A stretch of 64,000 nucleotides of DNA, from the NCBI GenBank assembly GCA_037349105.1, contig JAYJMM010000063.1, positions 868,001 through 932,000 on the forward strand, written 5' to 3'. The notes beneath the pieces were generated by a model. The model was not told the DNA's origin. It was given only the letters and a program-made list of their open reading frames with translations, and ran no database searches. Below, in pieces: positions 112-49,428 of this stretch. The position numbers were made by a program, and so were the translations under genes. This DNA is from Limnomonas spitsbergensis. Its lineage: Eukaryota; Chlorophyta; Chlorophyceae; Chlamydomonadales. The stretch's first letter is position 1. Each line of letters opens with the position of its first letter.

Positions 112-3100
112 GATCATGCGATGGATGGTTCTTCACGGCACTGGGGAGAAGCAGATGCTGAATCTTGACAAGCGGCAGCTCATTCAGGCGAGCTGCATCC
201 CAGCATGGACAATTATCAAGTGCAACATTTCCCCCTGCATGTAAAGAAAGAACACCGCGGTACTTGCATGTGCTGTCCTTATCTTCATATGTCCCTGACA
301 TGGAAGAACAGCTCTGGGTAAATGTTAGAAGGTGCCTTGCTGGCCAGCTTGCTCAGCATGCCCAGATCCTGCACACACCCTATCACAGGGCTTAAACCTG
401 GACATCCCCATCCGAGACATGCGCCTCCTGGACTCACACATGTCACACTATGAGACCATCGGGCAGATCCTGACTCGAGAGAACTCCATCCTGTTCAGCA
501 TGGAGCATGTCAAGGGCATCATCATGGCCGACAAGGCGAGGCCCGGGAGAACCTGCTTGGGAGGAAACGCTTGTGAGGACATGCTTTCTTGAGGCCTCCA
601 ACATGCAGTGTTGATGTTTTCACGACTCAGCTACATGGCAGCCCCTGATGGCAGCTACTCCTTAGCTGCATGTCAGCTACGCGCCACCTTCATGCCAGAT
701 ACTTGCCAACTATGTGTCAGCTATGTGCTAGCTGTGTCAGCTTAAGTCAGTGACATGGCAGCTACAAGTCAGTTATATGGCAGCTACAAGTCAGCTACAA
801 GTCAGCTGCAAGTCAGTTAAATGTCAGGGACAAGTCAGTTACATGTCAGCTACACGTCAGGTACATGTCAGCTACATGTCAGGTACATGTCAGCTACAAG
901 TCAGGTACATGTTAGCTGTATTTCAGCTTTATTATGACATCTGGTCGGAGCCCAGGCTTTGCCAGCTATGCTGCTCAGCCTCGGGCCTGAGGCGGTGGCT
1001 CCCGCGCCCTGGCCAAGGTGGCTTCATAGCTGGAACGATGAGCACTGTCATGGCAGCATGCATGGAAGGGGCTTGGGTTTGAGTTCAGGTTTGAAAGATT
1101 GCAAGCTTTTCTGAAACAAATGTTGATTTCGTCCACTTTCGTGTGTGTCATGCAGCACGGATGCGTAGGATTCCGCCCTTGATTTGATGCGTTTTGATGT
1201 CGCGTCTCCTGCTGCATCGCGACAGGTCATCATTCCCATTGACAACGAGGACAAGAATGATGTCAAGGACAGGTTTATTATGTACCTCGAGCAGATGGTG
1301 CAGGTGAGGGACCTTACCGTGTTTAGGCTTCAGGGTTCAGGATTGAAGTTGTTTTGAGTTCAGGGTTCAGGATTCAGTGTTTTCCAGCAGATGGTGCAGG
1401 TGAGGGACTTAACGGAGTTCGGGATTTAGGTTTTAGGGTTCAGGGTGAAGAGTTCAGGGTCGAGGATGAACCTGTGTTTTGAGCTGGTGGTTCAGGTGTG
1501 GGTCCTCATTAGTTTTTAGAGTTCAGCGTTTGCGATCGTGGGTTTAGTTTCTTGTAGCAGATGGTGCAGGTGAGGGACCTCATCGGCCTCGTGGCTTTGC
1601 CATGTGAAAGGACTTGACCTTAGCCCTTAACCCTAAACCCCAAACTGCCGGGTTGAGGAGAGAAGGCAACCCTTTTAGATTCAACTCCTGAGCTATGTCC
1701 CGAATCTTGTCGTGTTCCTGCTCGGTGCCGCTGCATTTATGAGCTCGCTTCAGCTACCCGACCTAGGGCGGGCAGGGCTTGATGCTTGGGGCCACAGGCC
1801 AAATGCCGGTTTCGTCTCATTGGCCGGTTGGGTCCCAATTGGCCCTGTGGTGGCCGCCGGAGACCCACCAAAAGGTAGTGTAGCGCGCAGGGGAGGGGGG
1901 GCAACCAGCGGTTCTGGGGCGGAATTTATTTTCCAGAGCGCGTGTTTTGCATCCTTGAGCTAGCCCGAACGTTCATACAGAAAAAATCACGCCCCGTCAC
2001 CTCTGCTTGCCCCACCCCACCCCTGGTGGCGTGCACTTCAGCAAACACTGGTCATTAGTCATCCATCAGATGTGTCCCCCTCCTGCTGCTTGGGCCACTG
2101 GCCACTGGGGTCCCTGTCCGGGTGAGTCCCACGTGGCCTAGGTTTGGCGGCCTGGAGGCCTCCCTGAAGGCGGCATATTTCGGCAGTTTCAGCGTATCGC
2201 ACACCGCAATGCACTAAAACATACTCACATATACCACCGATAAATACATTAAAAACAACTAAAATACATTGTGTCCGTCTCAGGAGTACTCGACGCAGAT
2301 GCAGCAGCGTGCAGAAGCGGCGGAGCGGAGCACGGCAGCCGACTTGGACTTTCCGTACATCAGTCCTGCGGAGCAGTCGGGCAAGATGGCGTCTGCATTT
2401 GCGTTCGGCACCAGCGCCGGAGGCAACTTCCAGCATGATGATGAAGTGCTGCCCTTTGAGCTGCACGTGCTGGAGGTGGCACTGGGGGAGGTGTGTTGAG
2501 GGGGGGGGGGGGGAGCGGAAAGGGGGGAGAGAGAAGGAGGGAGGGCGGGAGCAGAAAGGGGGATGGGATGGGGGGAGGGGAGGAAGGGGGAAAGGGGGGG
2601 AGGGGGGGAGGGGGACAGGGGGGGGGCAGGGAGGGGTAGAAAGGGGGAAGGGGAAGGGAGGAGGGAAAAGGGGGAGGGGGGGAGCAGAAAGGGGGAGGGG
2701 GAAGGGGGGAAGGGGGGGGCAGGGAGGGGTAGAAAAGGGGAAGGGGAAGGGGGAAGGGGGATGGGGAAGCAGCCCAAGCAGGGGGGCTAGCCACACCTGG
2801 AGCCTCCGGCCAGAGGCCGGATTGCAGCTGACATGTAGCTAAATGACAAGCTTCTTCCTGTATCCTCTGGACCTGAATAATATATCCGCGTTTCTCCTCA
2901 ATGTGGGTTGCATGGTAGCCTCCCCAGTGCTACGGCCGATCATGTGGGGCTTCCTTAATCCCTCGGGTTTAGGGTTAAAGCCTAAAGCCTAAAGCCGTAA
3001 CCCTAAACTGGTGGGGCCTCCTTAATCCCTCGGCCACCACGGCTGTATTCTTTACTTATTCTTCGGGAGGATTGATCACGTCCAGCTTCTCCCCACTTTC

Positions 3101-6100
3101 CTCCTGCGTCCAGATCTGCAATCACCTGGCGCGTGAGGTGGACATGTTGCAGGCACAGGCGCAGCCAGCCCTGGACGATCTGACCAAGAACGCAGACCAG
3201 GTAGGGTAGAGGCTGCTCAGGACGGGACCAGGCCTCCAGGCCTCCTCTTCGCCGCAGCTGTCCATCTCGTTTCCAGGTAGGGCTGACGCTGCTTGGTGCA
3301 GTACCAGGTAGGATGCAAGGTGACGATCTGACCAAGAGCGCAAACCAGGAAGGGCTGATGCTGCTTGGGGCGGAACCAGGTATGACCTTTGAGTGACATA
3401 TAATGTAGAATGTATAATTTTCACCAAGAACGCGGACCAGGTAGGGCTGAGGCTGCTGGGGGCGGAAGCACATTCGGCACCAGGCCTCCTCTTCGCCGCT
3501 GCTCTGCCAATTGCATTTCCACTGGCCATTTGCAGGACCTCGCCCTGGCCTGCTGCTCACATCGCTACCACCTTGCCTGCCCTGCATGCGGTGGTGTATT
3601 TAAGATTATTCGTACCCTGAACCCTTGACCCTGAACTCTTTACCCTATTAGCCTCTGCTGACATGTCAGGGTTTCCCCCATATCCCTGCTTCCACACTTT
3701 TTATTTTGCTGTGACTTTACAAGGTGTGAAACCGACCGCCCAACCCTAGAAACCTGAGACGCTGACACAAAAAAAGAGCCGGGGTGCGCAAGGGGCCCTC
3801 GTCGACAACTGAGTTAAGGCGAGCAGGAACAGGAAAGGCACACGACCAACAAGCACTCACACGGCCGCAACAACTCGTGGAGCTTTACTGCACCTCCTTC
3901 AAGTACCTCATCCCCCATCTGATGCGTACAAAGTTCGATGAAGGTCTAAAAGAGAAACTGTTTACCCCGCCTCGACACCCCTCTAGCTAAAGCACACAAC
4001 CACCAGAATCCCACCCGAAAGCTGACGCAAACGTCTCCACCAAACCGAAAAAACGATACCCATCCCACAGAAGGAGACAACAGCTGACAAGGAGCCAGAA
4101 AGGGAGCTGTCTGGACACTGAGAGGGCAAAGGGCTGAGTAAAACCTTAAGGCATACCCCGCAAAGACACAACTCACAAACCAGCATCCAGCCACAAGGCC
4201 CTAACTACCCCCAGGCCCGCAGAACACGAAGCAAAACCGCAAACAGGACAAAGCACAGCCGAAACTAGGGACTAAGTCACAAAGGGGGCGAGGAAGGGGA
4301 CAGCGACCCAAAGGTTCACCCAATAGTGCAAGTTCAAAGCATGAAGGGATGCCTCCCGGGGAACAAACCGGCGCCACACTTACCTTGTCACTCTTATGCC
4401 GCCACACTTCCTTTGTCAAACATTTGATATCCACAAACTGCCACACTTACATTGACACACTTATGCGTCACACTTGTGTTGCCTTGCTCACGCCACCACA
4501 CTTCCGTAGCCACAATCACGCTGCCGAGCTTACACTGCCACATTACATAGCCACACTTACACTGCCACACTTCAAATATGTTACACTTCTTGCCCCACTT
4601 ATGCTGCCCCTCTTCCCTTACCCCCCTGGCCCCTGCCTGCCCTCCCAGCCTCAACTAGAGCGTGTGCGTCGCATCAAGACCGGCCTCCAACGCATGGTGG
4701 TGCGTACCAAGCTGGTGCGGGAGGTGCTGGAGAGGCTGATGGAGGATGATGATGACATGCTGCGGATGTGCCTGACACGCCAGGTGAGGTGCAGCAGGGG
4801 CGTGGGAGCAGGTGTAGCAGGAGATGTAACAGCTGGGAGCAGGTGTAGCAGGAGATGTAACAGCTGGGAGCAGTTGTAGCAGGAGATGTAACAGCTGGGA
4901 GCAGGAGGACAGGTGGGAGCATATGCAGCGGCAGGGGCAGGAAGAGGGGAAGCAGCAGGGATAGGAGGAGGGGTAGTGGGAGGCAGTAAGAAAAGGGGCG
5001 GGAGAGGCTGATGGAAGAGGAGGATGACAAGCTGCGGATGTGTCTCACGTGCCAGGCGAGGTGCAGTGGCAGGGGCAGGAAGAGGGGAAGCAGCAGGGAC
5101 AGGAGGTGTAGTGGGAGGGTGAAAGAGGAGGGGCGGGGGCTGATAGAGGAGGAGGATGACAAGCTGCGGATGTGTCTCATGCGCCAGGTGAGGGGCAGTG
5201 GCAGGGGCAGGAAGAGGGGAAGCAGCAGGGACAGGAGGTGTAGTGGGAGGGAGAAAGAGGAGGGGCGGGGGGCTGATAGAGGAGGAGGATGACAAGCTGC
5301 GGATGTGTCTCATGTGCCAGGTGAGGGGCAGTGGCAGGGGCAGGAAGAGGGGAAGCAGCAGGGACAGGAGGTGTAGTGGGAGGGAGAAAGAGGAGGGGCG
5401 GGGGGCTGATAGAGGAGGAGGATGACAAGCTGCGGATGTGTCTCATGCGCCAGGTGAGGGGCAGTGGCATGGGCAGGTAGAGGGGAAGCAGCAGGGACAG
5501 GAGGTGTAGTGGGAGGGAGAAAGAGGAGGGGCGGGGGGCTGATGGAGGAGGAGGATGCATTAGGCGGCGCAGACCTGCCTGCCCACTCGGTCTTGCTCAT
5601 CGGCCACTAGGGTGCATTGGACAAACGCGCGTGGGATGTGAGGTAGACGTGGCACAGACCGTCGGTGGTATATAGGTTCAAACGGTAGATTCCACACTGA
5701 ACATTTTTGTGAATCTAGTTTCATAGGCGTAAGGTGTCTACGTACCTGTCCACTCCGTATTTGGTATATGGTTTCAAATGCATGAGGCGCCGACCCCCGC
5801 CTGTCCACTCCGTCTTGCTCACAGGCCACCATCGTGCATCGACGGTCCCTGAGCCCCTCGGCCAGCATGGCGCGCGAGCACTCCCTGACGTCAAAGATTG
5901 CGGCGGGCCTCACGGCCCAGGCGACGCCCGTGCCCGTGCCCATGCCAGCCTCGTGGGGGGCGGACGCTCCCTTCCGGGCTCCTTCCCCTGCCTTGAGGCG
6001 GGACTTCCCGCATTCGCATTCGATGCGGAAGGACAGCCTGTTGGCGTCCAACATGAGACGGCAGGCCGCCATGTCCGGTGGGTGAGAGACCTGTAGGGCG

Positions 6101-9100
6101 GGGGAGCGACACGTGGGGCAACCTAGTGGCCCAAGTTTGGCATCAGGTCTGAGCCCCCGTATAAGATCTGAGCCCCCTTTTAGATCTGAGCCCCCGTATC
6201 AGATCTGAGCCCCCGTATCAGATGTGAGCCCCCGTATCAGATCTGAGCCCCCGTATCAGATATGAGCCCCCGTATCAGATCTGAGCCCCGGCATCAGATC
6301 TGAGCCCCCGTATCAGATCTGAACCCCTTTATCAGATCTGAACCCCGGCATCAGATTGGAGCCCCCGTATCAGATCTGAGCTCCCGCTTTAGATCCGAGC
6401 TCCCGTATCAGATCTGTGCCCCGGCATCAGATCTGAGCCCCCATTTCAGATCTGAGCCCTCGAATCAGGTCTGAGCCCTTGTATCAGGTCTGAGCACCCG
6501 TAACAGATCTGAGCCCCCGAATCAGATCTGAGCCCTGGCATCCAATCTGAGCCCCCGAATCAGATCTGAGCCCCCGAATCAGATCTGAGCCCCTGTATCA
6601 GATCTGAGCCCCGGCATCAGATGCGAGCTTCGATAAACCTTCCACCTGCAGCTCAAAACCCAACGGGACACTGGTGACAGTGCTGGTTGTGATGTCATGC
6701 TTAGGGCCTAGGGTCTAGGGTGCTCGTTGTAATATCACGTTAGGGGTTTGGGGGGGCAGGGTGCTCGTTATGATGTCATGATTAGGGGTTAGGGTTACGT
6801 TCCTTGTTATGTTATCATGGTTAGGGCTTTGGGTTTGAAGGGGTTAGGGTGCTGTTGCAATTACTTGTTTAGGGTTAAGGGGGGTTGAGGTGCTTGTTGT
6901 GATGTGATGTTTAGGGTTCGGGTGTAGGGGGGGGAGGGTGCTGTTTCTATTACTTGTTTAGGGTTTAGGGGGGTTAGGGTGCTGGTTTCGATTCCTTGTT
7001 TAGGTTTAAGCGGGGTCGGAGAGCTCGTTGTGATGTCATATTGATTGCATTTGCAGCTTGCCTTCCCCTCGAAATACACTGAGATCAAGAATGAGCTGCA
7101 GCAATACGTTCTGGAGGCGGAGAACCTGTTTGAGCCCCACTTTATTCTGGTGTTTTTAGCCCCTGTCAAAGCTCGGGTAAATTATGTAATTCATAGCCCC
7201 CCCCCCCCCCCCTTCTATTGTGCGTGCAGAGGACAATGAGGAGCTGCAGCGGAACATGATGGAGGTGGATAATCTGTTGAAATCGTACTTCATGCACATT
7301 TTCAGCCCCTGAATATGCCCGGATACAGTATGAACTTCTTGCCCCCCTCTTGTATTGTGCATGCAGAGGACAATGATGAGCTGCAGCAGAACATGATGGA
7401 GGTGGAGAACCTGTTGGAGTCCTACTTCATGCTGGTGGACTCGACGCACCAGAGCCTGGAGACCATTGGTGGGAAAGGAGGGTGTCAGACAGTGTCAAAC
7501 CCTTCACCCTTAAACCCTTAACCCTAAACCCTAGACCCCTAAACTATACCATAGGTGGGAAGGGTGTTGAAGGTAATGGCGCGGATGCGGCTTCGGTCCA
7601 GGCTGCGCTGTTTCCTTAACTCTCACGCCCCCCACGTGGCGTAGCTTTCTCTCTTCCTTTGGGGGGGGGACGTCAGGCAGTGTGTGTGTAGGGGGGGGGC
7701 AGCTGATCATCATTTCCCCCCTTTCTACGATTTGCGATTACTCCCTCCACCCGCGCATATCGATTTTTCCAAGGGGAGATGTCCGACAGTGTGTGGGGGG
7801 GGGCGGGGGGCAGCTGTTCATCCTTTTCCCCCTTTCTGCGATTTGCGCCTACACCCCCCCCCGAATAGCAATGTTTTCGAGGGGAGATGTCCAACAGTGT
7901 GTGTGTGAGGGTGGGAAGTAGCTGATCCGCTTGATTGGGCCAGGCTGTCTGTGTCCTTCTTCAACCTGCTTGGGCGGCTGTCTCGAGTGGGGGGATGTCC
8001 TTCTGGGGCGGACATCCTCCTGCTGGGCGGATGTCATTCCTCATCCTGCTGGGGCGGATGTCCTTCTTCTTCCTGCTGGGTAGGAGGCGGCTGTCTGGCC
8101 GTTGGGGGAGCTGATAGGCTGCCACGCTGACGAGCCTGCACTGTGTTAAGGTATCTAACGATTCGTACGCGGTGTGTGCCTAGTGTTAGTTTGAGTGAGG
8201 TTCTGGCCAGCTTTGGGGGAGCTGCCGGGCGGCCACCACCAGGCCAGTTGGGGCCAGACTGCGACCGGCCTGCAGCCAGTGGTCCATGGTAGGGGATTGC
8301 TGCGAACAGGTCCTCTCGGCAACAGGTCGTGCTGTCGCTGAAATGTTGGCAATGGCTTGTGCCACGCGTGCCCTCTCTTCCTCTGCACAGGCGAGTGGAT
8401 TTTGGATGACTCCAAAAGGACGTGATCAACATCTGGCTCAGGGGATCTAGCTGGTCTGCAGCCACACACAAAAAACAGCTTATCCCCCGTTGCGCCTGCA
8501 GCCGAGGGGATAAGCTTGTTCAGTAACATTCCGGCAGGCCGTTGGCCAGGGTGTGGTTGAAATGTAGCTGAAATGTGCGCCAAGTATAACCTGTGCCACG
8601 CGTGCCCTCTTCCAGCACAGGTAAATGGATTGTGGATGATATACCCAGGACCTCATCTACATCCGGCTTGATTGCAGCCAAAAGAAGCCCATCCCTCATC
8701 CCCCCATCCCCTGTGGCCTGCAGGGATTGCAGCTTGTTCAGTGCCATCCCAGCAGCCTGCGGAACGGTATGTAGCTGAAAAGGTAGCTGATGTGCACACT
8801 TAAGGTATACACATGTACCCTCCTCCTGCACAGGTGAGTACATCGATGACACGGAGGATCTGATCAACATCCAGCTGGACTACAGCCGGAACAAGCTGAT
8901 TCGCTTTGAGATCATGCTCACGACGGGGACCTTTTCGCTTGCGGTGTTCAGCGCGGTTTCGGGGATGCTCGGCGAGAACCTGTTGCTGCCTGAGATGATA
9001 CGGGAGGTGCGTGAGTGTGGCTGAATTGTGGCCATGATGTAGCTGAATTGTACTTAATGCTGTTTGAGATGATCAGAGAGGTGCGAGTGTAGCTGAATCA

Positions 9101-10265
9101 TAGCGATGATGTAGCTGAATTGTACTAAATACTGCCTGAGATGATCAGAGAGGTGTGTGGGGCAGTTTGTAGCTGAATTGTAGCCATGACGTAGCTGAAT
9201 TGTAGCTGATGTCGCACAAGATGACCAGAGAGGTGCGAGGGGCAGTGTTGTAGTTGAATTGTAGCCATGATGTAGCTGAATGGTAGCTGATGCCATGTGA
9301 GATGATCAGAGAGGTGCGAAAGGCAGCGTTGTAGCTTAATTAGTGCCATGATGTAGCTGTATTGTTATTACTGCTGCCTAAAACTACAAGTGAGTTGTGA
9401 GGGGCCATGTTTATTGCAGTGCTCACCCGGCCACCGGTAGGCCGATGGGTAGCCACCACTGGGTTGATGGGGATCAAGCCTTGACTGGACGGCCGATGGC
9501 CCAGGCAGCAGGGCTTGTTGCGCCAGGCCCCCATGTCCATGATGTAGTTGAACTACTTGAGCCGATCAGGCAGATGCCTGTCACCTCTCCGATCATCTCA
9601 GAAAGCATCAGCTTCACTTTGGCTGCCTAAGTGCAGCTGATGCTTTCTGAGATGATCAGAGAGGTGAGAGGCATCTGCGAGTGGGGAGAGGGTATGCATT
9701 TGTGCGGTGCAATGGTGCTATGCATTTGCGAACTGAAGTTTGATGCAATGATGCAGTTCATTGTTTGCTGATAGAGAGTCCATGTTGGCACTGGTTGCAC
9801 GTTCTTGTCAAACGTCCAAGGGTTCTGCAGTGCTCGGACCGGTTTGCGCCTTTGTGGGCACCGGTCTCATGCAATCAAGTGCTCGAAGCCCAACAAAATA
9901 CCAAATGTGATTGGTCGCCTGGCTTCTTAGGCCACGAAAGCCCACGATGCAATGCGATTGAGGAGTGTGTCTGCGAAGTTAGTGGCTTGCCTTCTTCCCT
10001 GTGTGCATGTCACATGCTCACCTCAGGCTTGTATCCCGCTCGCCGCCTCTCGCATATCCCCCCGCCCTAACCGGAATAGTTGGGCCGGCCGATGCAGCCG
10101 AGGTTTTTTAGCAGGGCCCAGAGGTGTGAGTGTGTGACACCATTGTGCTGCTTGCCTCTGCAGAAGGAATGGTACTTCGGAATCATCAACACTGGCGTCA
10201 TGCTGGTGTGTGGCATCACGTTTCTCGCCATCGTGCGAGTGCTGGCCATGAGGAAACTGATCTAG
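112..10265 (+). CDS. MRS2: MRS2/CorA-type magnesium transporter, ten visible exons, 5' end missing
   Basis: Exons read at 112-187, 389-535, 1226-1303, 2284-2490, 3114-3200, 4649-4783, 5825-6077, 7367-7468, 8834-9006 and 10164-10265 (stop TAG). All phases match and give 452 residues; the start codon lies upstream of the window. MRS2 family features appear in order: the IPIRDMRLLD block, FSMEHVKGII, LPFELHVLEVAL, the helical run around QPALDDLTKN, RVRRIKTGLQRMVVRTK followed by LMEDDDDMLRMCLT, VENLLESYFMLVD, then DDTEDLINIQLDYSRNKLI. TM1 is around FSLAVFSAVSGMLG and TM2 around INTGVMLVCGITFLAIVRVL. The family forms pentameric Mg2+ channels in mitochondrial, plastid or vacuolar membranes. The pore signature GMN, normally invariant, reads GEN here (8971-8979). 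Exon 7 encodes a longer, low-complexity insert before the long helix. The donors after exons 1 and 2 appear to be GC (CAG|GCGAGC, AAG|GCGAGG). The family assignment is firm; the first two donors are inferred. Confidence 0.9.
730..930. repeat. Short-period minisatellite in MRS2 intron 2
   Basis: Degenerate 10-12 bp units of the type CAGCTACATGT / CAGGTACATGT / CAGCTACAAGT repeat across the intron. The apparent + strand reading frame through it is an artefact of the repeat. Confidence 0.8.
1290..1582 (+). repeat. Three copies of the MRS2 exon-3 donor junction
   Basis: The true exon end and donor, GCAGATGGTGCAG|GTGAGG, at about 1291-1309 recur at about 1385-1410 and 1555-1580. Each copy keeps the AG|GTGAGG splice signal. 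They are separated by degenerate TTCAGGGTT telomere-like sequence. The first copy is taken as the real one because its upstream frame is open from a good acceptor. Confidence 0.8.
2495..2790 (+). repeat. 300-bp polypurine (GGGGA-rich) tract at the start of MRS2 intron 4
   Basis: An almost pure G/A strand begins within about 10 bases of the donor after exon 4 (GGGGGAG|GTGTGT). Proline-rich frames on the opposite strand are a consequence of its composition, not genes. Confidence 0.85.
3170..3460 (+). repeat. Copies of the MRS2 exon-5 donor junction
   Basis: The exon end GACCAAGAACGCAGACCAG|GTAGGG (to 3206) is echoed at about 3323-3360 (GACCAAGAGCGCAAACCAG) and 3423-3450 (CACCAAGAACGCGGACCAG, followed by GTAGGGCTGAGGCTGCTGG). 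Shorter pieces carrying CCAGGTAGG lie between them. Confidence 0.8.
4380..4600 (+). repeat. Degenerate CCACACTTACACTG-type repeat in MRS2 intron 5
   Basis: GCCACACTT(A/C)-type units recur about a dozen times at irregular spacing upstream of the acceptor of exon 6. The rest of intron 5 (3461-4379) shows no recognisable gene. Confidence 0.6.
4985..5560 (+). repeat. Five tandem partial copies of MRS2 exon 6 with its donor
   Basis: The exon 6 end (GAGAGGCTGATGGAGGATG ... CTGCGGATGTGCCTGACACGCCAG|GTGAGG, 4729-4790) recurs as units of roughly 125-140 bp starting near 5006, 5138, 5268 and 5407, with a truncated one near 5538. Units keep the reading GAGGATGACAAGCTGCGGATG and a CCAG|GTGAGG or CCAG|GCGAGG donor. 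No copy has a clear acceptor of its own, so they are unlikely to be used as cassette exons. Confidence 0.85.
5575..5850 (+). repeat. Duplicated acceptor and start of MRS2 exon 7
   Basis: Sequence around the real acceptor (CACTCCGTCTTGCTCACAG|GCCACCATCGTGCAT, about 5802-5838) has a degraded copy at about 5583-5618 (CACTCGGTCTTGCTCATCG). Flanking intron sequence (GGTATAT..GGTTTCAAA) is duplicated with it. The upstream copy has lost its AG. Confidence 0.7.
6141..6628 (+). repeat. ~19-bp AGATCTGAGCCCCCGTATC minisatellite, MRS2 intron 7
   Basis: About 25 tandem units of AGATCTGAGCCCCCGTATC with point variants; most units contain the palindrome AGATCT. It begins about 60 bases after the exon 7 donor. 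Intron sequence from 6629 to 7040 is dominated by degenerate TTAGGGTT-like tracts. Confidence 0.9.
7046..7320 (+). pseudogene. Two decayed copies of MRS2 exon 8 upstream of the real exon
   Basis: Copy 1 (7060-7155) reads NELQQYVLEAENLFEPHF. Copy 2 (about 7218-7312) has an intact acceptor (TGCAG|AGGACAATGAGG) and reads NMMEVDNLLKSYFMHIFSP, then a stop. Copy 2 is in the correct phase for splicing from exon 7 but has no donor before its stop, so inclusion would truncate the protein before the membrane segments. The real exon is 7367-7468. Confidence 0.75.
8385..8665 (+). repeat. Two degraded copies of the MRS2 exon 9 acceptor and exon start
   Basis: The real junction GCACAG|GTGAGTACATCGATGAC (8828-8850) is preceded by GCACAG|GCGAGTGGATTTTGGATGAC at about 8387 and GCACAG|GTAAATGGATTGTGGATGAT at about 8613. 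Both continue with recognisable but frame-broken versions of GATCTGATCAACATCCAG. Confidence 0.75.
9055..9680 (+). repeat. Repeated copies of the MRS2 exon 9 donor, ending in an inverted repeat
   Basis: The exon end GAGATGATACGGGAG|GTGCG (8992-9011) is echoed as GAGATGATCAGAGAGGTG near 9068, 9137, 9218, 9300 and 9645, spaced about 70-85 bases with GTAGCTGAATTGTAG filler. Near 9571-9610 the same sequence lies inverted, so 9571-9672 forms a long imperfect hairpin. Confidence 0.8.
10098..10140 (+). repeat. Partial foldback-family repeat next to the last MRS2 exon
   Basis: A copy of the AGCAGGGCCCAGAGGTGT arm of the dispersed foldback family (see 12907-13110), 25 bases upstream of the last acceptor. 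It probably supplies part of that intron's 3' end. Confidence 0.65.
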
Positions 10266-13264: not shown

Positions 13265-16200
13265 CTACTTCTCATTCAGCATCCTTGTGGCATACGCACA
13301 TGCTCCGATTTGCCCAACCTTCCCATTCGTGATGATGTACAAGGGAGTCTTGACCAGGATCTCGTGGAACTTCTCCCGGCCGTCCTTCATCAAGAAGCCC
13401 TCTAGCAAGCTCCCGTGCGCAATGCGCTCCAGTAGCCGCGGGGCGATGCCCCCGGCAATGTACACACCGCCTGTACAAAACAAAAAGCCAGGCAGTGATT
13501 CAAATTTCAAAAAGCCAGGCAGTGATTCAAAAGTCAGGCAGTGATTCAAATAAACTGGCGTCAAGAGCATCAGTTAGGATTTATGCCTTAATCTCTTAGG
13601 ATGTGTGATCCAAACACGCTTCTTAACCTACGCGCTCATACAGAAGATGTAGACATTATCAAACACGCCATGCAGTCATTTGGCATCGCTGGTTAATGAA
13701 AAAATACCAACTAAAAGCCCACCAGATATTCCATAAACTGCAACAGCTAAATCGAGATTCCCTTGCTCAATAGGATATCAGCAGACCATTTATCGGTCGA
13801 AACAGCAAACAAATCGGTTTCACAAAAGACCATGCACTGATACACCGGGACACAAAATACATGACTCGTACCCTTGGCCAAGCTGCGCAGCGCCATTGCC
13901 CCAGCCTCGGCCCCAATGATGGCCAGGAACATGTCGACCGCCTCGATAGCCAGCGTGTCTTTCTTGTCCAGGGCCATGGTGGTGATCTCTGGAGCAGTCT
14001 GCAGCAAGACGTGATGGCCCGTTTTTCGTGTGGCCACCTTAATGACGCTACTGGACTCTAATTAGGCGACCGGTCCGTATCCAGCGGCCAGAGCATTCAT
14101 ATGCAATGGTAGTAGATTTTAGACCTAGAGAGCAGAACATTCAGATCTAGTGGTCACAGCTTTCATGCTCTAGCATTAAGATTAAGGGGCTAAAGCATTC
14201 ATATGTTTGTTTAGTGGCCAAACATTCAGATCCAGTGGCTAGAGCATTCAGATCCAATGGTAGAAGATTTCAGATCCAGTGGCCAAAGCATTCAGATCCA
14301 GTGGCCAAAGCATTCAGATCCAGTGACCAAAGCATTCAGATCCAGTGGCCAAAGCATTCAGATCCAGTGACCAAAGCATTCAGATCCAGTGGCCAAAGCA
14401 TTCAGATCCAGTGGCCAAAGCATTCAGATCCAGTGGCCAAAGCATTCAGATCCAGTGGCCAAAGCATTCAGATCCGGTGGCCAAAGCAATCAGATCCAAT
14501 GGCCAAAGCATTCAGATCCAGTGACCAAAGCATTCAGATCCAGTGGCCAAAGCATTCAGATCCAGTGGCCAAAGCGTTCAGATCCATTGGCCAAAGCATT
14601 CAGATCCATTGGCCAAAGCATTTAGATCCAGTGGCCAAAGCATTCAGATCCAGTGGCCAAAGCGTACAAAAAACAATGCTCAGAGCAGTTTGTAGCGAGA
14701 CGGCGGCAAGATATACTAGAGGCACAAGCATGGCAACGCATGCCATCAGAAGTTTCAATCAAGGTGAAGTATATGAAAATATCAGTCAAGCTACGGTGTG
14801 GATAAGAATACAGCACCTGCTGCATACCGTAGATCTCAATTGCCTTCCCTCAGGTATGAATTTTCGATTAGGGTATAGTAATGCTGCCCTCGGGACAAAA
14901 TCAGTTGTTTGATGCTCTGCCCCCAGGGTAGTTTTGTTTCACAATCCATTCCCTGGCATCGAAACTGGCTTTATTGGAGTACCACAAGCCGAGAACTGCA
15001 AGCCTAGTGTGGCCCACCCAGCTTCCAGTGCCGACACAACGTAAAAATATGAATGCAACGCTCAGGGACATATAGGCACGAGATCATATTATCCCCCAAA
15101 AGCATTTATCATTGATTAATGACTATCACATTAGGTAGCAAAAGATGCTCGGAAATATCCCCAAGAATACATCCATTGTTATTAACTCCACACATTATGC
15201 TGACACACACGAGTCTTCAGCGCTGCTCAAAATAAGGATAGCACCACGACATGCTACCCTCCACAAGCATTCATCCATTATCACCACGTCCGCAAATCAT
15301 CCCCGCGCATTCATCCATTGCCATGGTGACGCGAGTCTGAGGCACAAGTCCATGAAACCAAGCGAGGACCTGGTTTGGGGTTCAGGGTTTAGGGCAGCCA
15401 ATGAGCACTTGGTAGCGACCCACCTTGAGCGTGGCGTTTCGCAGCACGTCCGGACGGTTTGCACGTTCATCCGTGAGCAGGAACTCGTAAATTAGCTCCA
15501 GGCCAGCGCCACAGGCCACCTGCAAGCATCAGTCCAACAGCAGGGCCAGCATCACATTAAAGAAGGCGTCAAGCTGCTGCCGCAAGCACCCTATCAGCAG
15601 CAGAGGCAGTCAGGCAGCAGGGCCATCTTCACATCAAGGAGGGCACCAAGCTGCTGCACCAAGCTGCACCAAGCTGCAAGCACCCTATCAGCAGCAGAAG
15701 CAGAAGCAGAGCCAGCTTGACATCAATGAAGGCGCCAATACGCTACCAGCAGCAGTAAGATCAGCCACCTTCATTCCAGCGCAGCAGGACCGGTTTCATT
15801 CAAAGGCGGCTCCAAGCTGCTGACTCATTTTGGTGAAATGCATTTCTCCCACTACCAAGCGGGAGGCCTGCAACCCTGAGAAACCGGGCTCTCACGCACA
15901 AGAGCCCGCTGACCTGCTCAATTTCGCAGTGCCTGTACTTGGTGGTCGCGTACGCAGCCAGGGCAGCCTGCTTCCAGCCCCTGGGGGCGAAGTTCGCATG
16001 CGCGCCCTCCCCTGCAAGGATTAGGGTTAAGGGTTAAGGGTTTAGGGTTTAGGGTGGGGGCGAAATTCGCATGCGCGCCTTCCCATGCAGCACATCCAGC
16101 AGGCTCGTCAGCAGCAGCAGCAGCGACAGCATGTCCAACAACCTCAAATAATGAGCCTTTGGGTCCCTGTCCCTTCAGGTCTGCAACTAAACCAAACATG

Positions 16201-19200
16201 ACAGGAAATAGTATGTCCACCGTTCACACACTTTTGTTTCTGAACATGCAGCGACCTCGACAGGGTTTAGGGTTAAGGGATTTCTGAACATGCAGCGACC
16301 TCGACAGGGTTTAGGGTTTAGGGATTTCTGAACATGCAGCGACCTGTGAAGGGTTTAGGATGACGGTTTTTCTGAACATGTTTCCCTTCATACAGGGTTT
16401 AGGGTTTAAGGGTTCAGGGTTCAGGATTTAGGGTTTAGCGTTTAGGATTTAGGGTTGAGGATTTAGAGGCCTTCCTGAGCATGCAGCCCTCCGTGGAGAG
16501 TAACATGGGTGATAGGGGACATTCGCCACATCACAGGCTGGTCATCCTGTATGTTGCAGAAGCCTGTCCCAGCCTCCCTTCAGCGCCTGGATGGGTTATT
16601 TGGAGCCAATCATACACCGGTCACCGGAGTTCTGGTATCAATGTTGATATATATATATAATAGTGTTCGGAATTTTTGCATGTAAAATTGTGAACCATGC
16701 TCGCAATGAGCCCTTTGCACACCGACCCATTGTCACTAATTAAGTTTGAAGTTGGCACAGCATTGGATTCAATCAAGCTGGGCCAGGAATCATTCAATCT
16801 CGATCCACGTAGCCCTTCAAAACGACCGAGGGTAAAAAAGCTCGTTTCTGACAGGCTCGCGAGCCAATGATCCCCCCCCCCCCATCCCCCCCCCCCCCCC
16901 CCCGGCCTCATTATCATGCACCTTTAGCAAAAACAAGTACCGCGCAGCTACTTCGTGCAGAACATTAATTTCCCTCCAACATTTACACCCCCAAAACATT
17001 ATTTCAAAGCGGACCAGAATGCGTATTACGGCACCGCTACCCTATTATGATACTGCGTACCGGTATGCTCATGGTAGCTCACCTAGGGCTACGGCCAACC
17101 GGGTGGCTTCCTTAATCCACGCCTCAGGGCGTATCGTATTTATTTATTTATATACCGGTATGCAGGTACATAGATATCCATGCGCCGTCTATTTGAAATG
17201 CATTCCCGCAGGTATGAAATAAGCATTTCAAGAAATTCTCAAGGGCAGATTCAAGGGCAATCTCAGGGGCAATCTCAAGGGCAAATTCAAGAATTCAGAG
17301 GGGCAAAAATCTCTCGATTTTCCGACTTCCGGAAACGGCGTCGACAGTGAGGAATAGACACCAAAAGGGTGTGCATTCCTCATTCCCCTCCACAACAATG
17401 TCTCCACTCCATTCCCTCATGCCCCGCCTAAGCTAAGCTAACTATGAGGCAAGGCAACCGCCTACAGCGCCGGTATTCCAATGCCCCTTATGGTAACGGC
17501 GCGGACGCGGCCTAGGCCCATGCCGCGCTGTTTCCTCAGCCCTCTCGCCCCTGCGGAGCGCAGTTTTCTTTCATTCTCCAATGTCCCACTATGCTCAGCA
17601 GACCGCTGCCATGCCTCACCTGGGATCACGCGGTATGCATCCTGCTTGTCGTCCCACATCAGCTGCGCAGCTCCGAGGCCGGTTCCGGGGCCCATGACAG
17701 CCTTGGGGGCCTAGGTGGCAGAGGAAGGCACCAGCATGCATTCACACTGGTCACACAGACAATGACTTCGAAAAGCCACGCGGTCAATTAACGTCCATGC
17801 ATACAGCGCTGGCCATCCCTCGGTCGGATGCCAGCGCCGTGTCAAGGCCGCCATGGATGCAGTGTGCTGGAACTTGCGTTCGGTGATACAGCTCTTCAAC
17901 TTGCACAGTAGGCTTCATCTGCCACATACAGGATCCCACTGGAGTCCAAAATATTACGGCTGACCAAATTCGGATGGCAGATTGGCCTCGGCCAAGCATA
18001 ATTTGCAAGGTCCGTGACTGCCCTGCATTGGGCCCGAAATATAACATAATGCCAATCCGGGAATCAACGATATTTTAAATGCATATGCCCCCTCATGCCT
18101 AAAGGCTATGAATCGGCAAGATAATGGACCCATTGCGATGACAAAATCTTTATGGCACCTTTCTAATGGTTGTTTGGAATCCCAGCGTTACCCTGGCCTC
18201 AAATTATTTGGAATCCCAGCGTTACCTTGGCCTCTAATTGTCTGAAATCCCAGCCTTACCTTGGCCTCTAATTGTTTGGAATCCCAGCGTTACCTTGGCC
18301 TCTAATTGTAATTGTTTGGAATCCCAGCGTTACCTTGGCCTCTAATTGTAATTGTTTGGAATCCCAGCGTTACCTTGGCCTCTGGCAGGGCAAAGTTGAT
18401 CGGCACAATGTCTGATTCGGCCAAAGCAGGGATGCCGTATCCAACAGCTTCAAAATCGTTGAGGATCGCCACCCTAACAAGCAAGGATGGACAACCACGG
18501 GATTTTGTCACATGGTCAGGGTGTTCGAATGCAGGCAAGATGCGCTTGTCCAACGTAGGCAAACTTCAGGCTTGTCCAATGTAGGCAAACTTCAGGAGCA
18601 AAATTGCTGGAGATCAAACTTATATGCTCTCTCCCTGCCTTGTATTCAACTTATCATACACAGCGTTCTCTACTTTTTTTAAATGAATGTTTGAAAAATG
18701 TAAGGGGCTACATGTCAGTGTACCGGTATGCTCAAAACATCTTTCCTTACCCATACGGTTTTAACGGTTCGGTGACAATAATTTACGAAATGAAAGGAGA
18801 TTACCGGTATATAACGCTTTCCACCTCATCATTCATGGTGATGTCAAGCCTCAACAGCTACCCCTTCCAGGCAGCGAAAAACACCCGTCCATGCATATCA
18901 TGCAACACGTTGCATCCCATGCATCTCATGCATGTCATGCAACACGTGCATCTCCTGCATGTCATGCAGCATGTGCATCCCATGAATCCCATGCATCTCA
19001 TACAACACGTGCACCCCATGCATTCCCATGCATCTCATGCAACACGTGCATCCCATACATGCCCATGCATCTCATGCAACACGTGCATCCCATGCATCTT
19101 ATGCTTCCCATGCAACACGTGCATCCCATGCATGTCATGCTTCCCATGCAACCCAGCCATGCGGATCGGCACCTGAAGCCCAAGGTCTTCTGGAGGGACG

Positions 19201-33835: not shown

Positions 33836-33837
33836 AT

Positions 33838-36802: not shown

Positions 36803-36804
36803 GA

Positions 36805-37660
36805 TACCGTAGAACGCCTTAGACTCCGCGCACCCCCCAAAAAGAGGAATTTATTTTTTCGTCGCGCAGTTAAAAAGAATTAAAGAAACGGTTGCGCAGC
36901 GACGATTTTTTTTTAAGTAATTTAATTTCAGGCCGTGCATAAGTTCTTACGGGGACCTGACCGACCATTTGCGCATATTCCAGTTCAACTCCGCGCACCG
37001 CTGATTTCTTGATTAATTATTACCGCGCGCAGCGTGTCCGCGCACTCCAATAATTATTATAATTACGAGCGGAGTCAAAGTCTTTATACGGTATTGTTTT
37101 CATGTCAATAACGTAACACCTATGGGCCCGCTCAAAGCTCGGCCGCGTGGGCGCCCAACTGTTCAAAAGGGATTTAAGAAAGAATTAAAAGGAGGCGAGG
37201 GGGAAAGGAACTAAAGGAGAGGCCGGGAAGGGAAAAAAGACCAAAACCAACACCTGAGTTCCACTAGAGACCAGCCCTCAACAAAGCCTCTAAGAAAATA
37301 AAAGTCCACAAAAGCAAGCGTATCCCACCCCTGCTTGGCCGCGAGGGCGCCCCACTGATTAGAAGGGAGAAACGAAAATGGGGCAAACAACAACAACAAC
37401 AAAATTGTTTACATGTGTAACCGGATCTTTTCACACACACACATCACTTGATTGTCATTGATTGACACACATAGGGTGGCGGCGGCGGCGGCCGGCCTCC
37501 TAGTAATCCCTCACGTTCCATACATAACCCTAACGTCCGTATCGTTGTTTGCGGTAATTGATCAGGCTCCCCTCAGGCCCCCCCCTCACGCTCCCCCTCA
37601 GTTGATCCTGCTTTTAATGGCAGGCTTGCGGTTAACGATCAGAGTCCTCCTCACGCGGCC
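36805..37660. other. Intergenic, foldback arm and low-complexity sequence
   Basis: Contains a minus-strand foldback arm (37105-37157), a partial arm near 37335 and short ACACAC and GGCGGC tracts. Around 36820-37080 are A/T-rich segments with CGCGCA motifs. No gene recognised. Confidence 0.4.
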
Positions 37661-37662
37661 CC

Positions 37663-41599
<3,937 letters not shown>

Positions 41600-42440
41600 C
41601 TGCGCCGCTTATGTGTATGCCGTATGCAGCAAAAAAAGTTGTTGATGTCAGATCTAGATATTTGGTGAGCAAGGTCTAAGTGAGAACTGCTGACAACGGC
41701 AAGGGTCGCTTTCCACCAATCTTATTACGAACGTCGTCAGTAGCCCAAGTGCTCCAGATTTTGGTGCCAGGTTTACAGGGTTCTCCCGCGCGCCCCGACC
41801 GAAGTCGGGCTACGGAGCGGGGCTCCCAGACCGGCGTTCACACCCCGCCCCGACCCAGCGCTACACCGAGCCACACCTTTCGCGCGTTGGGGAGAAAAAT
41901 CGCGTGGGGTGGCAGAATTCGCGTGGGCGAAAACAGCGCGGCGTGGCTTGACGTGTAGGCTTGGTTTGGCTTCGCGTGTGGCGTGTCGACCCTGCTGAAG
42001 TCGGTTCGTCGGGGCGCGGGTGTCGGTGTCACTCAAGGTCGTCGTCGTCGTCGCTGTATTTATCTTATGTAGCTGTAATACCTATCATACTTTCATAATT
42101 ACGTGGATAGGAGATATCGAGGAGAGTCAATTTGAACATCTTCAGCAAGCATCTTCAACATCTTCACGCTACCTTTACGAGCTGAAGTGTGCATGGAAAT
42201 GATATAAAACAAGCAGCATAACGGTTACCAGTTATACATATAGACGAATGCATGCATGTGCATGACAGTGCCCATGCATGGCAGTACCCGTGCATGCGAC
42301 ACCCGTGCGCGTAGCACTTGCACATGGCTGGTTCATGCATGGAAATTTGGGGATGGCATACCATAGTATAAACATGGTGTGATAATTTCATCAATAAAAC
42401 AGCTTCACGTTTATATTCCCCCCTGGTAGGCCATTACATG
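41600..42440. other. Region upstream of the glycosyltransferase
   Basis: Presumed promoter side of the minus-strand gene. It includes a 65-bp fragment (41715-41780) of the unit tandemly repeated at 45040-45760, and a G+C-rich stretch (41785-41960) with no recognised gene. At 42250-42310 there is a small cluster of GCATGCATGT / CCATGCATGG palindromes. Confidence 0.5.
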
Positions 42441-42452
42441 GTGGGTTGTGAC

Positions 42453-43977: not shown

Positions 43978-44117
43978 TTATCATAGAAGCTACACACTGT
44001 TTAAATGCTCAAGAAAATACATTGTATCAATTGAAATATTTCTGAAATTTATAATCCCAGTATCTTTGTATATGTATGCACTTTAAACGGCAAATGTACC
44101 ATTCACAGTATTTGCAT

Positions 44118-45760: not shown

Positions 45761-45855
45761 TGTGTTGGAGGGATACGTTGCATCACACTTTTTGTGCGAG
45801 CCGAACTCTTCTTTCTTCTTGACCATTACTTCTGTGTTTGCCTTTCGGTGACTAG

Positions 45856-46283: not shown

Positions 46284-46284
46284 A

Positions 46285-47107
46285 AAATGTGCAGGCCGAT
46301 AGCCGGGCGCAAGGCGACAGAGGATAGATGGTTCGCGCTCTGACATTGATCAAGCATGGCGAATTTTGTACACATGGCCAAACTTCAATTTGGAGCCAAG
46401 TCAGTCCTACCTAGACTACTGCATAGTGCATACAATCCTAGCTGCAGCCCAGCCTTGACCCCACTACTCACCGATCCTACCCGGGATTCTACCTGCTGAC
46501 GACTGTTCTTCACGCCCTCATCGACTCCTTCCCGGCATCCCCAAGCCTGTTACTGCCTCGCCATTGCCTGGGCTCACTCGGCTCACTCTGTCAATGAAAG
46601 GCTTGGAGAGCCGCCTGAAGCTCGCCGACAGAGTGCTGGGATCAGGCAAGTATGGGTAGTGAAATCTTGTGATCAGATGTTTTTTGTAACACCTACTACC
46701 GGTAGGCAGATGTACGATATCAATCAGCTGCTGCTGCATGCAGCTGCTGCTTTGAACCCTTCCTGTTTAGCACTTCAGCACTCGTGCACTTGCAAGCTGT
46801 AAGTGAGCTGCAACTGACAGGCCATGTCCATTCCCGATATTCCATTCTTCCAGCTGGTTCCTGTTACCCTTAACCCTAAACCCTAAATGGTAACCCTAAT
46901 CCCTAACCATGAACCCTACACCGTAAACACTTAACCCTAAAACCTAAACCTAAACCCTAAAGAATACCTATACCCTGAACCCTCAACTCTTAACCTTGAA
47001 TCTTGAACTCTAAGGCATTCAACAACAATCCGCGACCTCGTGTCCCCCCCCCCCCCATATCATGAAGACGATAAGCCATGCGCTGCCACCTGTGTTCCTG
47101 CTTCCAG
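46285..47107. other. Region upstream of the first visible kinase exon
   Basis: Contains a telomere-like tract (46865-47010: CCCTAAACCCTAAA with many variants) and a C homopolymer (47043-47056). The exon encoding the start of the kinase glycine loop was not found and may lie further upstream. Confidence 0.45.
46865..47010 (+). repeat. Interstitial telomere-like CCCTAAA tract in the kinase intron
   Basis: Degenerate CCCTAAA/CCCTTAA units, the reverse of plant-type TTTAGGG. Similar tracts occur at 1320-1640, 2955-3005, 6700-7010, 7495-7550, 16015-16060, 16260-16460 and 48785-48830, almost all in introns. Confidence 0.8.
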
Positions 47108-49428
47108 GTAGCTTTGCCCATGTGTTGCTCGGGGAGCTTGAGGGCCAGGGCCCCGTCGCAATCAAAGTGCTGCTGCCGGCGCTGTGTGACCCGCAGCTGA
47201 GGCACTTCGCGACCTGTCAACGGCATTTCAAGCGTGAGGCGGAGCTGCTCATGAGGCTGAGTCACCCGTGAGGCGGAGGGAGGAAAGGGGGGAGGAATAG
47301 GGGGTGGGGGAGGAGGAGGGGGGAGGAGGAGGGGGGAGGAAGAGGGGGGAGGAGGAGGGGAGAGAGGAAACTAAGGAGGAAGAGGGGGGAGGAGGATGGG
47401 TGGAGAGGAGGGGGGCGGAAGAGGGGGGAGGAGAAGGAGGGGAGGAGGAGGGGAGGAGGAGGAGGGGAGAGGAAGAGGGGGGAGGAGGAGGGGGGGAGGA
47501 GGAGGGGGGAGGAAGAGGGGGGGAGGAGGAGGGGGGAGGAGGAGGGGGGAGGAGGAGGGGGGAGGAAGAGGTGAACTGTCTCTGCTGTGGGGTTATGATG
47601 CAATCCAGTACGACATAACTGGGCAGTACGGCTGCAATACAGCATGTGTGAGCTGAGAACTCTGCTGACCTGCACCTCTCAGTGCACAGGAACATGATCG
47701 TGAGCAAGAGGATGAACACATGAACTGCAGCGTGAACACGCCTTGACTCTCTCCCCATTGGTCGTCCGAATCTCCCAGTGCACAGTAATGTGATCGTGAA
47801 CAAGTGCATGCACATGAACGGAAGCGTGAACTTGCATGCTCCTCCTCCCCACTGGCTGCCCTGAACCTCTCAATACCATTAGCGAAGCTTAAGACAAAAT
47901 TTAGATATAAGGTTTTTAAGGTTTTGCATGATTGGCTGCTTCCCCTCTCTACTGGACAGGAATGTGTTGTGCTGCTATGGACTGGCCCTGCTGCAGCCAA
48001 GCCACCCGGGCATGCCGCACAACTACGCGCATCCGGCACCAGCTATAGTACTGGAGCTGTGTGAGGTGCGCTGGAGCTATATGAAGTGAACCTTTGTGCA
48101 CCTTGACGGACAAATAAACATGTTTTGCATCCGGTGCCGGCCATAGTATGGGAGCTGTGTGAGATACGCTGGAGCTATCAAGTGGACCTTGGTGCACCTT
48201 GACAGGTAGATGAACAATCATTGCAGCAGTAGTGGGCTCGTAGTACTGTCAGAGGTGTGTGAGGTGCGCCGAAGCTGTATGAAGTGGACCTTGGTGCACC
48301 TTGACGGACAGATAGCTGGTTCTGCTTTCCGGTCTCCCCTGTTTCCGTATTTTGTTGTTGGGTCCTTGCCTATTGTTGTTGTTGGGTCCTGCTTTCCGTT
48401 GGTGGTTTGTTGTTGAGTCCTTGTCTTTCGGCTGATATGGCTTTGGCTCCTCTGTTTGGTGTTGCCTGTACTTCGTCTGTTGCCCTGTTGCTGGCGGTAC
48501 TGTTTTACTCCTGTGTCTGTTGTCCCTGTTGCTGGCGGTACTCTTTTACTCCGGTGCCTGTTGTCCCTGTTGCTTGCGGTACTGTTTTACTCCGTTGTAT
48601 TTCAGTCTTCGTTTCCTGGTCTGCCTGTGGCCCTTTCTAAAAAGGCTGTGTTGGATGAGTCAGCTTTGTACTAACGACAGATAAACAATGATTGCAGCAG
48701 TAATGGGCTCGTACTCCGCTCGTAGTACTGTCAGAGCTGTGTGACAGACAGCCTGTATGACAGACAGGCTGCTATTGAGGGTTTTATGGGTTGAGGGTCT
48801 GAGGGTTTTAGGGTTCTAGGGTTTTAGGTCCAGTTTGAATCATGTTGCTGGTTTCCCCCATGTTCACTCTGCCTGCTGGCCCTTTCGAAAGAGCCTTTGG
48901 GTGGTTGGGTGGTTGGGTCAGCTTCGTTACAGTGGACAGCTCGACAAGCATTGCGGCAGTAATCGAATGGTGGTGCTAGAGCTGTGCGAGGTTTGCTGGA
49001 GCTGCGTCCACGCTCTGCATCATCATCCGACGCTTTGCTGCCTCTGCATCGCTGGCCTGGCTGGCTTGTCATCTTCTCAAAGGATAGACTGCTATCCACC
49101 CACCATGCCCACTGTGGCCGCAATTCACTTTCAATGTTATCATGAGTTAATGGAGCTTCGAAAGGGAGCAACGAAATCATGGATAAGAGGGGTTGTCCCT
49201 AGAAAAATTTCCAAGGAGGGGCAAAAAAATAAAAAAGATCGATGCGATTGTGATTATTTAAGAAAAGCAAGCTCTGCTTACGTTGAAATTGTCTTCAACT
49301 ACTTGTTTGAAATTTGTCTGCAACTCCCTTGCCTGCCTCTTCCCTTGGCCTTGCCTGCCTGCATGCAGGGTGGCTCTGTTGCCGATATGATCTTCAAGCA
49401 GATGACGGAATTCTCTAAACTGTACACG
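47108..49428 (+). CDS. Protein kinase, three exons of the N-lobe; gene continues past the window
   Basis: Exons 47108-47267, 47960-48065 and 49369-49428 join in phase. They encode the rest of the glycine loop ([10 protein letters not shown]), the ATP-anchoring Lys in VAIKVL, the alpha-C helix [20 protein letters not shown] with its Glu, strand 5 and the hinge IVLELCE, then [20 protein letters not shown] at the start of the C-lobe. The HRD, DFG and APE motifs must lie after the satellite-filled intron that begins at 49429. The pattern AIKVL...HPNVL with ELCEGGS is typical of plant/algal TKL-like serine/threonine kinases, but the group cannot be fixed from the N-lobe alone. Exon 1 starts in phase after a split Gly codon, so at least one coding exon precedes it. 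Confidence 0.82.
47268..47572 (+). repeat. Polypurine GGAGGAGGGGG tract at the start of a kinase intron
   Basis: About 300 bases of nearly pure G/A beginning at the donor (CACCC|GTGAGGCGGAGGGAGG). It parallels the tract after MRS2 exon 4. Confidence 0.9.
47665..47830 (+). repeat. Two copies of the kinase exon 2 acceptor
   Basis: Sequence like the real acceptor and exon start (CTGGACAG|GAATGTG, 47953-47966) occurs as GTGCACAGGAACATGATCGT at about 47680 and GTGCACAGTAATGTGATCGT at about 47778. Both are preceded by CTCTC(A/C)C-type pyrimidine stretches. Confidence 0.65.
48045..49015 (+). repeat. Five copies of the kinase exon 2 donor region
   Basis: The real end (GGAGCTGTGTGAG|GTGCGCTGGAGC, 48053-48077) is repeated at about 48151, 48250, 48735 and 48980. 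Filler CTTGGTGCACCTTGACGGAC, GATAAACAATGATTGCAGCA and TAATGGGCTCGTA is shared between copies. Most keep GAGCTGTG(T/C)GAGGT-like sequence. Between 48340 and 48600 a ~50-bp CCTGTTGCTGGCGGTACTGT repeat occurs three times. Confidence 0.8.

Follow-up and report, generated by a model that had tools for sequence, protein, structure and literature searches.

Exon-intron junctions in several genes of the chlorophycean alga Limnomonas spitsbergensis have been copied into the adjacent introns, and these copies are probably part of a general tendency of this genome to local duplication that happens to straddle exon edges and arises through the repair of staggered breaks with filler. The stretch analysed, referred to here as the window, comprises 64,000 nucleotides (positions 868,001 to 932,000) of contig JAYJMM010000063.1, designated C63, from an assembly of 260,226,709 bases in 124 contigs. 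It contains an MRS2-type Mg transporter gene and others that, from sequence motifs and the initial annotation of the sequence, we take to be a glucokinase, a glycosyltransferase-like gene, a kinase-like gene and a small gene in the middle. Paralogues of MRS2, the glucokinase and the kinase are present in the same order (0-20 kb and 46-49 kb in the window) at 7044-7075 kb of a second contig, C120. Intron positions and exon numbers are identical between the paralogues of these three genes, and the lengths of paralogous introns vary freely (for example, 201 and 2719, 1448 and 817, and 1608 and 721 bp). The junction copies exceed chance, yet they are rarer than copies at an average position in the intron interior.

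Junction copies and their controls

The 60 bp around each junction were aligned with the adjacent intron, and a copy was counted when the alignment crossed at least 5 bp on both sides and reached a score of 18. The set consists of eight gene copies that represent five genes, three of them as window/C120 paralogue pairs, and is small and non-random, being drawn from one syntenic block and the genes of the window. Crossing copies in the adjacent intron were found for 18 of 92 junctions (10/46 donors and 8/46 acceptors), as compared with 0/92 when the introns were reversed; at a looser score of 12 the corresponding numbers were 23/92 and 2/92. The junctions that passed are in MRS2 (6/18) and its paralogue (7/18), the glucokinase (2/14) and its paralogue (1/14), and the kinase and its paralogue (1/6 each). 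Two further C120 genes, whose exons were taken from lists of open reading frames (ORFs) and tested at placeable junctions only, contributed 3/11 (MBOAT-like 3/7, RAB-like 0/4), some of the MBOAT repeats having been visible before the test; the three MBOAT acceptor copies have GAACCCT repeats in between. In a separate test against shuffled introns, which included first-exon acceptors, 21 of 71 junctions passed at p 0.02, with about 1.4 expected.

In the first test, copies were found for 17/86 junctions (the set without the kinase paralogue), 8/339 exon-interior sites and 1254/3295 intron-interior sites (38%). The initial annotation held that its proposal would fail if junction copies were no more frequent than exon-interior copies; they are clearly more frequent, and the informative comparison is with the intron interior. 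Low complexity explains little of the intron-interior rate, since the reversed control gave 112/3295. Members of arrays inflate the raw 38%, and the rate with one founder per array, about 12%, is therefore given beside it; the junction rate lies in between and is lower than the raw intron-interior rate (p 0.0003). The exon portion of the crossing units ranges from 4 to about 69 bp, with no preferred offset apparent, indicating that there is no fixed anchor. The suggestion that duplication is anchored at splice sites finds no support in these results, and anchoring was rejected as the main driver because the junction rate is below that of the raw intron interior and only slightly above the array-collapsed rate. 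The simplest reading, which suffices, is neutral duplication everywhere that is tolerated in introns and across splice sites and purged in exons. A mild extra preference for junctions (p 0.01-0.06, depending on threshold and set) is compatible with the counts.

Fourteen individual junctions had been put forward in the initial annotation. Aligned crossing copies confirm nine of them, namely the donors 1303, 3200, 4783, 9006, 18374 and 48065 and the acceptors 5825, 7367 and 16011 (Table 1). Two acceptors are weak: 112 (32/43, p 0.005) was aligned with a target of only 1.2 kb upstream, and 8834 has a score of 0 in the strict test, both of its copies being recovered in longer alignments (58/83 and 120/177). 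The remaining three did not stand. The glycosyltransferase donor 39088 had no passing score (0 in one test and a 17/20 match, score 12.5, in the other); the repeats assigned to the kinase acceptor 47960 are copies of each other (47676-47737 and 47772-47831) and not of the acceptor; and 19860/19638 is intron interior, the glucokinase reading from EEIYSK directly into TFPTTEYD across that intron. Between the copies of the MRS2 exon 3 donor there are degenerate telomere-like TTTAGGG/TTCAGGG tracts (tract 1321-1460; variants identified by eye).

The paralogue pairs allow single duplication events to be polarised. Among 38 paralogous junction pairs, seven have copies in the window only, seven in C120 only, two in both and 22 in neither, i.e. 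14 of the 16 copied junctions pass in one paralogue only. The shared copies of the MRS2 exon 3 donor look independent in origin because, by eye, each resembles the intron start of its own paralogue. Identity between the best copies and their source is about 89% in both halves (exon 352/393, intron 353/399), and the copies are nearer to that source than the fourfold-degenerate sites of the paralogues are to each other (60/164 differ in the MRS2 pair, Jukes-Cantor distance 0.50, and 69/167 in the glucokinase pair, 0.60). The proposal that introns have grown recurrently through local duplication is supported. A very young duplication lies at 43618-43979 of the window, where 176 bp are repeated exactly and in the same orientation across a 10-bp spacer.

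Spacers, telomere-like filler and a probable route of duplication

A survey of 239 kb yielded 484 local repeat pairs, of which 425 share a copy with another pair and so belong to arrays, and 59 are isolated two-copy repeats. Among the latter, the copies are separated by a spacer of at least 4 bp in 46, contiguous in 2 and overlapping in 11; the spacer is 10-150 bp in 38 of the 59. In the 11 isolated pairs with at least 90% identity, nine are spaced, none is contiguous and two overlap. The predominance of spaced copies suggests repair of staggered breaks with filler, contiguous copies being the prediction of slippage. Head-to-tail arrays with units of 10 to more than 100 bp, as in minisatellites, were found with Tandem Repeats Finder (TRF).

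Some of the filler resembles telomere repeat. There are 59 tracts of the TTTAGGG type, as compared with 0-13 (mean 4) for 19 permuted units of the same letters, and direct duplications adjoin 23 of 58 tracts versus 275 of 1500 random places. Among nine tract cases, a counterpart lacking the interstitial telomeric sequence (ITS) was identified by script for two and by eye for one more. At glucokinase exon 5 the paralogue (C120:7062218) has a single copy without filler, in which CTGCTCCGCAG is followed at the junction by GGGAGGGCGC; in the window the old acceptor AG has become AT and is followed by 38 bp of CCCTAAA-type repeat and then by TTGCAG and a GGGAGGGCGC that carries the exon. The empty site of the MRS2 paralogue tract at C120:7055286-7055348 is window 8647-8843 (76% identity). 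A further tract, with a 42-bp duplication, lies inside one copy of a dispersed repeat, the other copies of which, by eye, read straight through. A search with the glucokinase tract plus flanking sequence matched putatively tract-like DNA on 11 contigs besides C63 and C120. The dispersed repeat has the core GACGTTACACCTCTGGG, matched 16 times with up to two mismatches in the 239 kb, including window 12271, 12818, 12913, 13092, 20709 and 21291 and C120:7033138 and 7037171.

We infer the following route. Closely spaced nicks on opposite strands would produce a staggered break, and fill-in would copy the overhang so that after repair the filler would be flanked on each side by a unit R of roughly 15-100 bp (R-filler-R). 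The sequence of the filler would vary, sometimes being telomere repeat that probably came from telomerase or captured telomeric DNA, and R-filler units could develop into arrays via unequal exchange or slippage. The same event inside an exon would destroy the gene. If a splice site lies within R, splicing would continue at the outermost copy (the first donor or the last acceptor), and the inner copy and the filler would become intron, so that the intron would grow inward. Repair copying, which the initial annotation had listed among possible routes, is a likely one.

Several results weigh against this reading. Junctions are slightly above the array-collapsed intron-interior rate (p 0.03 at score 18, 0.06 at score 16), and with the two extra C120 genes (21/103) p is 0.011; a slight excess is expected, however, since the exon halves of junctions change very little, which makes copies easier to detect. 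No junction passes in the glycosyltransferase (0/12), the RAB-like gene (0/4) or the middle gene (0/4), indicating that the process is uneven. Random places are also abutted by repeats (18%), and the 23 flanked tracts are not independent, with seven in the locus L018, five in L019 and three at C120:7077.6 kb; because these 15 are in three clusters, about a dozen places are represented and the p of 0.0002 is too good. Telomere filler occurs in only 4 of 40 repeats with spacers of 5-150 bp, so that telomerase would explain a minority. The script found an empty site for only 2 of 29 duplications, and a third, seen by eye, failed the script. For three of the 14 one-sided junctions (the MRS2 exon 4 donor and the MRS2 exon 8 and exon 9 acceptors), the second paralogue does have a copy, but it is weaker or has diverged further.

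Alternatively, replication slippage or unequal exchange would by itself produce plain tandem duplications, with no breaks or filler involved, and the decayed parts of copies would be left as spacers. This alternative accords with the large share of pairs in arrays and with the many TRF arrays; it is possible though on balance doubtful, given that the pairs of high identity are mostly spaced and never contiguous and that telomere filler is absent from the empty site in the glucokinase and dispersed-repeat cases. It is unlikely that the telomeric filler represents captured pre-made telomeric fragments or a spreading telomere-bearing element instead of telomerase action at the break: the flanking duplications differ by place, which indicates that the places do not derive from a single element, although many of the tracts are degenerate and lie within larger arrays and copying of R-telomere units would multiply them. 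If the junction itself were a hot spot, through transcription-coupled nicking, R-loops or splicing intermediates, the small excess over the array-collapsed rate and a concentration of telomere-like tracts near splice sites (see below) would be explained; the higher raw rate in the intron interior, the variable exon share and the easier detection of a conserved exon half make such a hot spot improbable.

It is very improbable that selection keeps the copies as decoys or alternative splice sites with a role in regulating these genes. Some features favour this, in that many best copies keep the splice dinucleotide and an array is present at the exon 9 donor in both MRS2 paralogues, but exon and intron halves are equally diverged, most copies pass in one paralogue only, and the loss of AG from acceptor copies, described below, points to counter-selection. 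An artefact of assembly from noisy reads is hardly credible; the assembly was built from PacBio continuous long reads, but it was polished with Illumina reads and has 63x long-read coverage (PMC11228838), the copies have diverged from each other, exact exon frames survive, and two paralogous loci, located on different contigs, both have a donor array at the same junction. Copying through cDNA was ruled out because the copies carry intron sequence. Shared introner-like elements look unlikely because, by eye, the spacers inspected differ between places apart from the telomere tracts, in agreement with the original statement that these are not mobile introns with a common sequence. Repair of staggered breaks with filler is accordingly preferred.

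Splice-site consequences and known systems

Telomere-like tracts occur within 70 bp upstream of 4/56 acceptors, all in the CCCTAAA orientation, and within 70 bp downstream of 6/49 donors (four CCCTAAA and three TTTAGGG, one donor having both), as compared with 20 of 420 intron-interior 70-mers (12 and 8 in the two orientations). When splice sites are pooled the comparison is 10/105 with 20/420 (p 0.056), or 17/420 at a stricter score (p 0.027). The orientation at acceptors, 4 to 0 (p 0.06), is suggestive only. The CCCTAAA strand is rich in pyrimidines, and CCCTAAC and CTTAAC are similar to branch points, so that this orientation could serve at acceptors. Three of the four tract-bearing acceptors pass the copy test, and the fourth, at exon 4 of the MRS2 paralogue, has a short repeated unit by eye. 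Among the best copies, 11/18 keep the splice dinucleotide. With only the best copy per junction considered, AG is lost in 5/8 upstream acceptor copies and GT in 2/10 donor copies, one of which is now GC; the acceptor losses (p 0.015 versus a neutral expectation of about 22%, p 0.09 versus donors) suggest selection against working upstream decoy acceptors.

It is conceivable, though doubtful, that introns in this lineage grow by a standing route in which telomerase would assist the mending of staggered breaks and the CCCTAAA strand would supply a ready-made branch point and pyrimidine tract. A break just inside an exon would then yield a telomere repeat and a copied AG with the exon start as an instant new acceptor, the old upstream AG would decay, and orientation would be filtered by splicing.

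Intron lengthening is usually attributed to transposons; here, measurable and apparently ongoing local duplication lengthens old introns. Introner elements are widespread, have one shared sequence and create introns, whereas each unit described here appears to be local. Mean intron length is given as 788 bp in the genome report of L. spitsbergensis (PMC11228838), which describes 260.248 Mb in 124 contigs from PacBio and Illumina reads with RNA-seq and IsoSeq data. Tabulated means elsewhere are 229 bp in Chlamydomonas reinhardtii and 934 bp in UWO241 (PMC11247165).

The initial statement that no system with this pattern has been described was too strong, since there are precedents (PMC4202315, PMC4974935, PMC2246262). 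Neointrons of Daphnia are likewise reported with direct repeats flanking and inside them, read as staggered-break repair, and with a "passive trend toward increased length" (PMC4202315). The introns in that account are new, at intronless sites, with exon-derived repeats of 4-12 bp; those analysed here are old and common to paralogues, with units of 15 to more than 100 bp across existing splice sites, many arrays and some telomere filler. Insertions bounded by direct repeats are found here (the 46/59 spaced pairs, and the glucokinase acceptor with its empty site), but no intron at a formerly intronless site, the positions being the same in the MRS2, glucokinase and kinase paralogues. Direct repeats overlapping splice sites in Drosophila have also been read as staggered-break repair, the introns again being novel (PMC2809761). 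Tandem genomic duplication similarly copies exon or junction DNA with inherited splice signals (PMC4974935); in the present case an existing intron lengthens, no new intron appears and the exon number of the paralogue is the same. The headings of a study of internal tandem repeats in human paralogues indicate that minisatellite expansion alters gene structure (PMC2812944).

ITSs are described as short internal tracts with ITS-less counterparts and some target duplication, plain duplication being given for 4.5-16% (PMC2246262, PMC7215372). The tracts described here exceed chance, and three have ITS-less counterparts; the 23/58 that are abutted by duplications include arrays and are not comparable like for like. 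Some of these duplications cover splice acceptors, and the titles and opening abstract lines of the open-licence papers found contain no description of telomere filler at such sites. The telomere cases tie together break repair, perhaps telomerase, and splice-site turnover.

Gene models and other features of the locus

Exons were placed using tblastn (for MRS2), ORFs, paralogue conservation and the splice consensus (Table 1). The joined exons form an open frame in both copies of MRS2, the glucokinase and the kinase. An open joined frame was not obtained for the glycosyltransferase or for the middle gene, of which three exons were placed in the window, and the exon boundaries of both are less certain. 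In the middle gene the first donor is misplaced by roughly one base, and the two genes account for 16 of the 92 tested junctions and for none of those that passed. A Pfam search with 10 candidate ORFs returned no families. The best named homologues of the window MRS2 are chlorophycean.

Table 1. Coordinates of gene models, copied junctions and a telomere-like tract in the window
Feature	Position	Strand	Details
MRS2-type Mg transporter, 10 exons	112..10265	+	tblastn; open frame; paralogue C120:7044559-7056999
MRS2 exons 1-5	112-187, 389-535, 1226-1303, 2284-2490, 3114-3200	+	112 may not begin the first exon of the gene
MRS2 exons 6-10	4649-4783, 5825-6077, 7367-7468, 8834-9006, 10164-10265	+	
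MRS2 exon 3 donor (1303) and copies near 1385 and at 1556-1580	1290..1580	+	25/25 for 1556-1580; 1385 copy by eye
MRS2 exon 5 donor (3200) and copies 3322-3380, 3423-3521	3174..3521	+	47/57; another 78/100
MRS2 exon 6 donor (4783) and four crossing copies	4720..5557	+	133-bp array
MRS2 exon 7 acceptor (5825) and upstream copy	5555..5839	+	36/44; AG lost in copy
MRS2 exon 8 acceptor (7367) and upstream copy 7205-7259	7112..7396	+	50/55; longer alignment starts at 7112
MRS2 exon 8 donor (7468), CCCTAAA tract 7497-7553, weak copy 7548-7564	7462..7564	+	15/17, p 0.010; under main threshold
MRS2 exon 9 acceptor (8834) and diverged upstream copies 8379-8453, 8513-8688	8379..8898	+	
MRS2 exon 9 donor (9006) and 81-bp array of copies	8984..9401	+	Array at same donor of paralogue
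Intron-interior telomere-like tract 2976-3008	2944..3036	.	Flanked by 23-26-bp direct duplication
Glucokinase, 8 exons	13267..20069	-	Open frame; paralogue C120:7060146-7064812
Glucokinase exons 1-4	20069-19968, 19366-19173, 18473-18374, 17710-17620	-	
Glucokinase exons 5-8	16011-15914, 15519-15424, 13998-13872, 13470-13267	-	
Glucokinase exon 3 donor (18374) and tandem array of copies	18157..18383	-	40/40; TRF 5.9 copies
Glucokinase exon 5 acceptor (16011), 38-bp telomere filler, 35-bp upstream copy	15982..16089	-	32/35; AG lost in copy
Glycosyltransferase-like gene, 7 putative exons	37660..41608	-	By-eye placement; joined frame not open
Kinase-like gene, 4 exons	46598..49431	+	Open frame; paralogue C120:7072415-7074603
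Kinase-like exons	46598-46645, 47108-47267, 47960-48065, 49369-49431	+	3' end uncertain, satellite adjoins
Kinase exon 3 donor (48065), copy 48241-48333 and a further one near 48973	48046..48333	+	44/52

GC replaces GT at the intron start of donors 187, 535, 19968, 46645 and 11356 of the window and of C120:7064711 and 7072463; in two cases the GC donor is common to both paralogues, and GC-AG introns seem frequent. Among 120 MRS2 homologues, three have an internal repeat over threshold, and the appearance of a copied exon is limited to one (P0002, a predicted protein of Chlamydomonas sp. UWO 241), in which a doubled CNHLAREVEILH segment may represent a copied exon that was annotated as coding sequence; this is the alga whose introns average 934 bp. 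In the C120 block the MBOAT-like gene is located between the glucokinase and kinase paralogues.

The one contig end examined, the last 400 bases of C63, is G-rich satellite and not telomere repeat. The strand-asymmetric satellite GGGATGGGATGATGGGGAGGGGGT, with a GC skew near 1, occupies both the end of C63 (L009) and window 49444-64000, after the last kinase exon seen. The sample from contig C3 (200001-210000, L012) has 36% GC as compared with 51-61% in the other 11 sampled contigs and may be organellar, foreign or unusual. Two further arrays are adjacent in the window, one of 21 units of 30 bp at 44382-45014 and one of about 3.7 units of 219 bp at 45040-45857.

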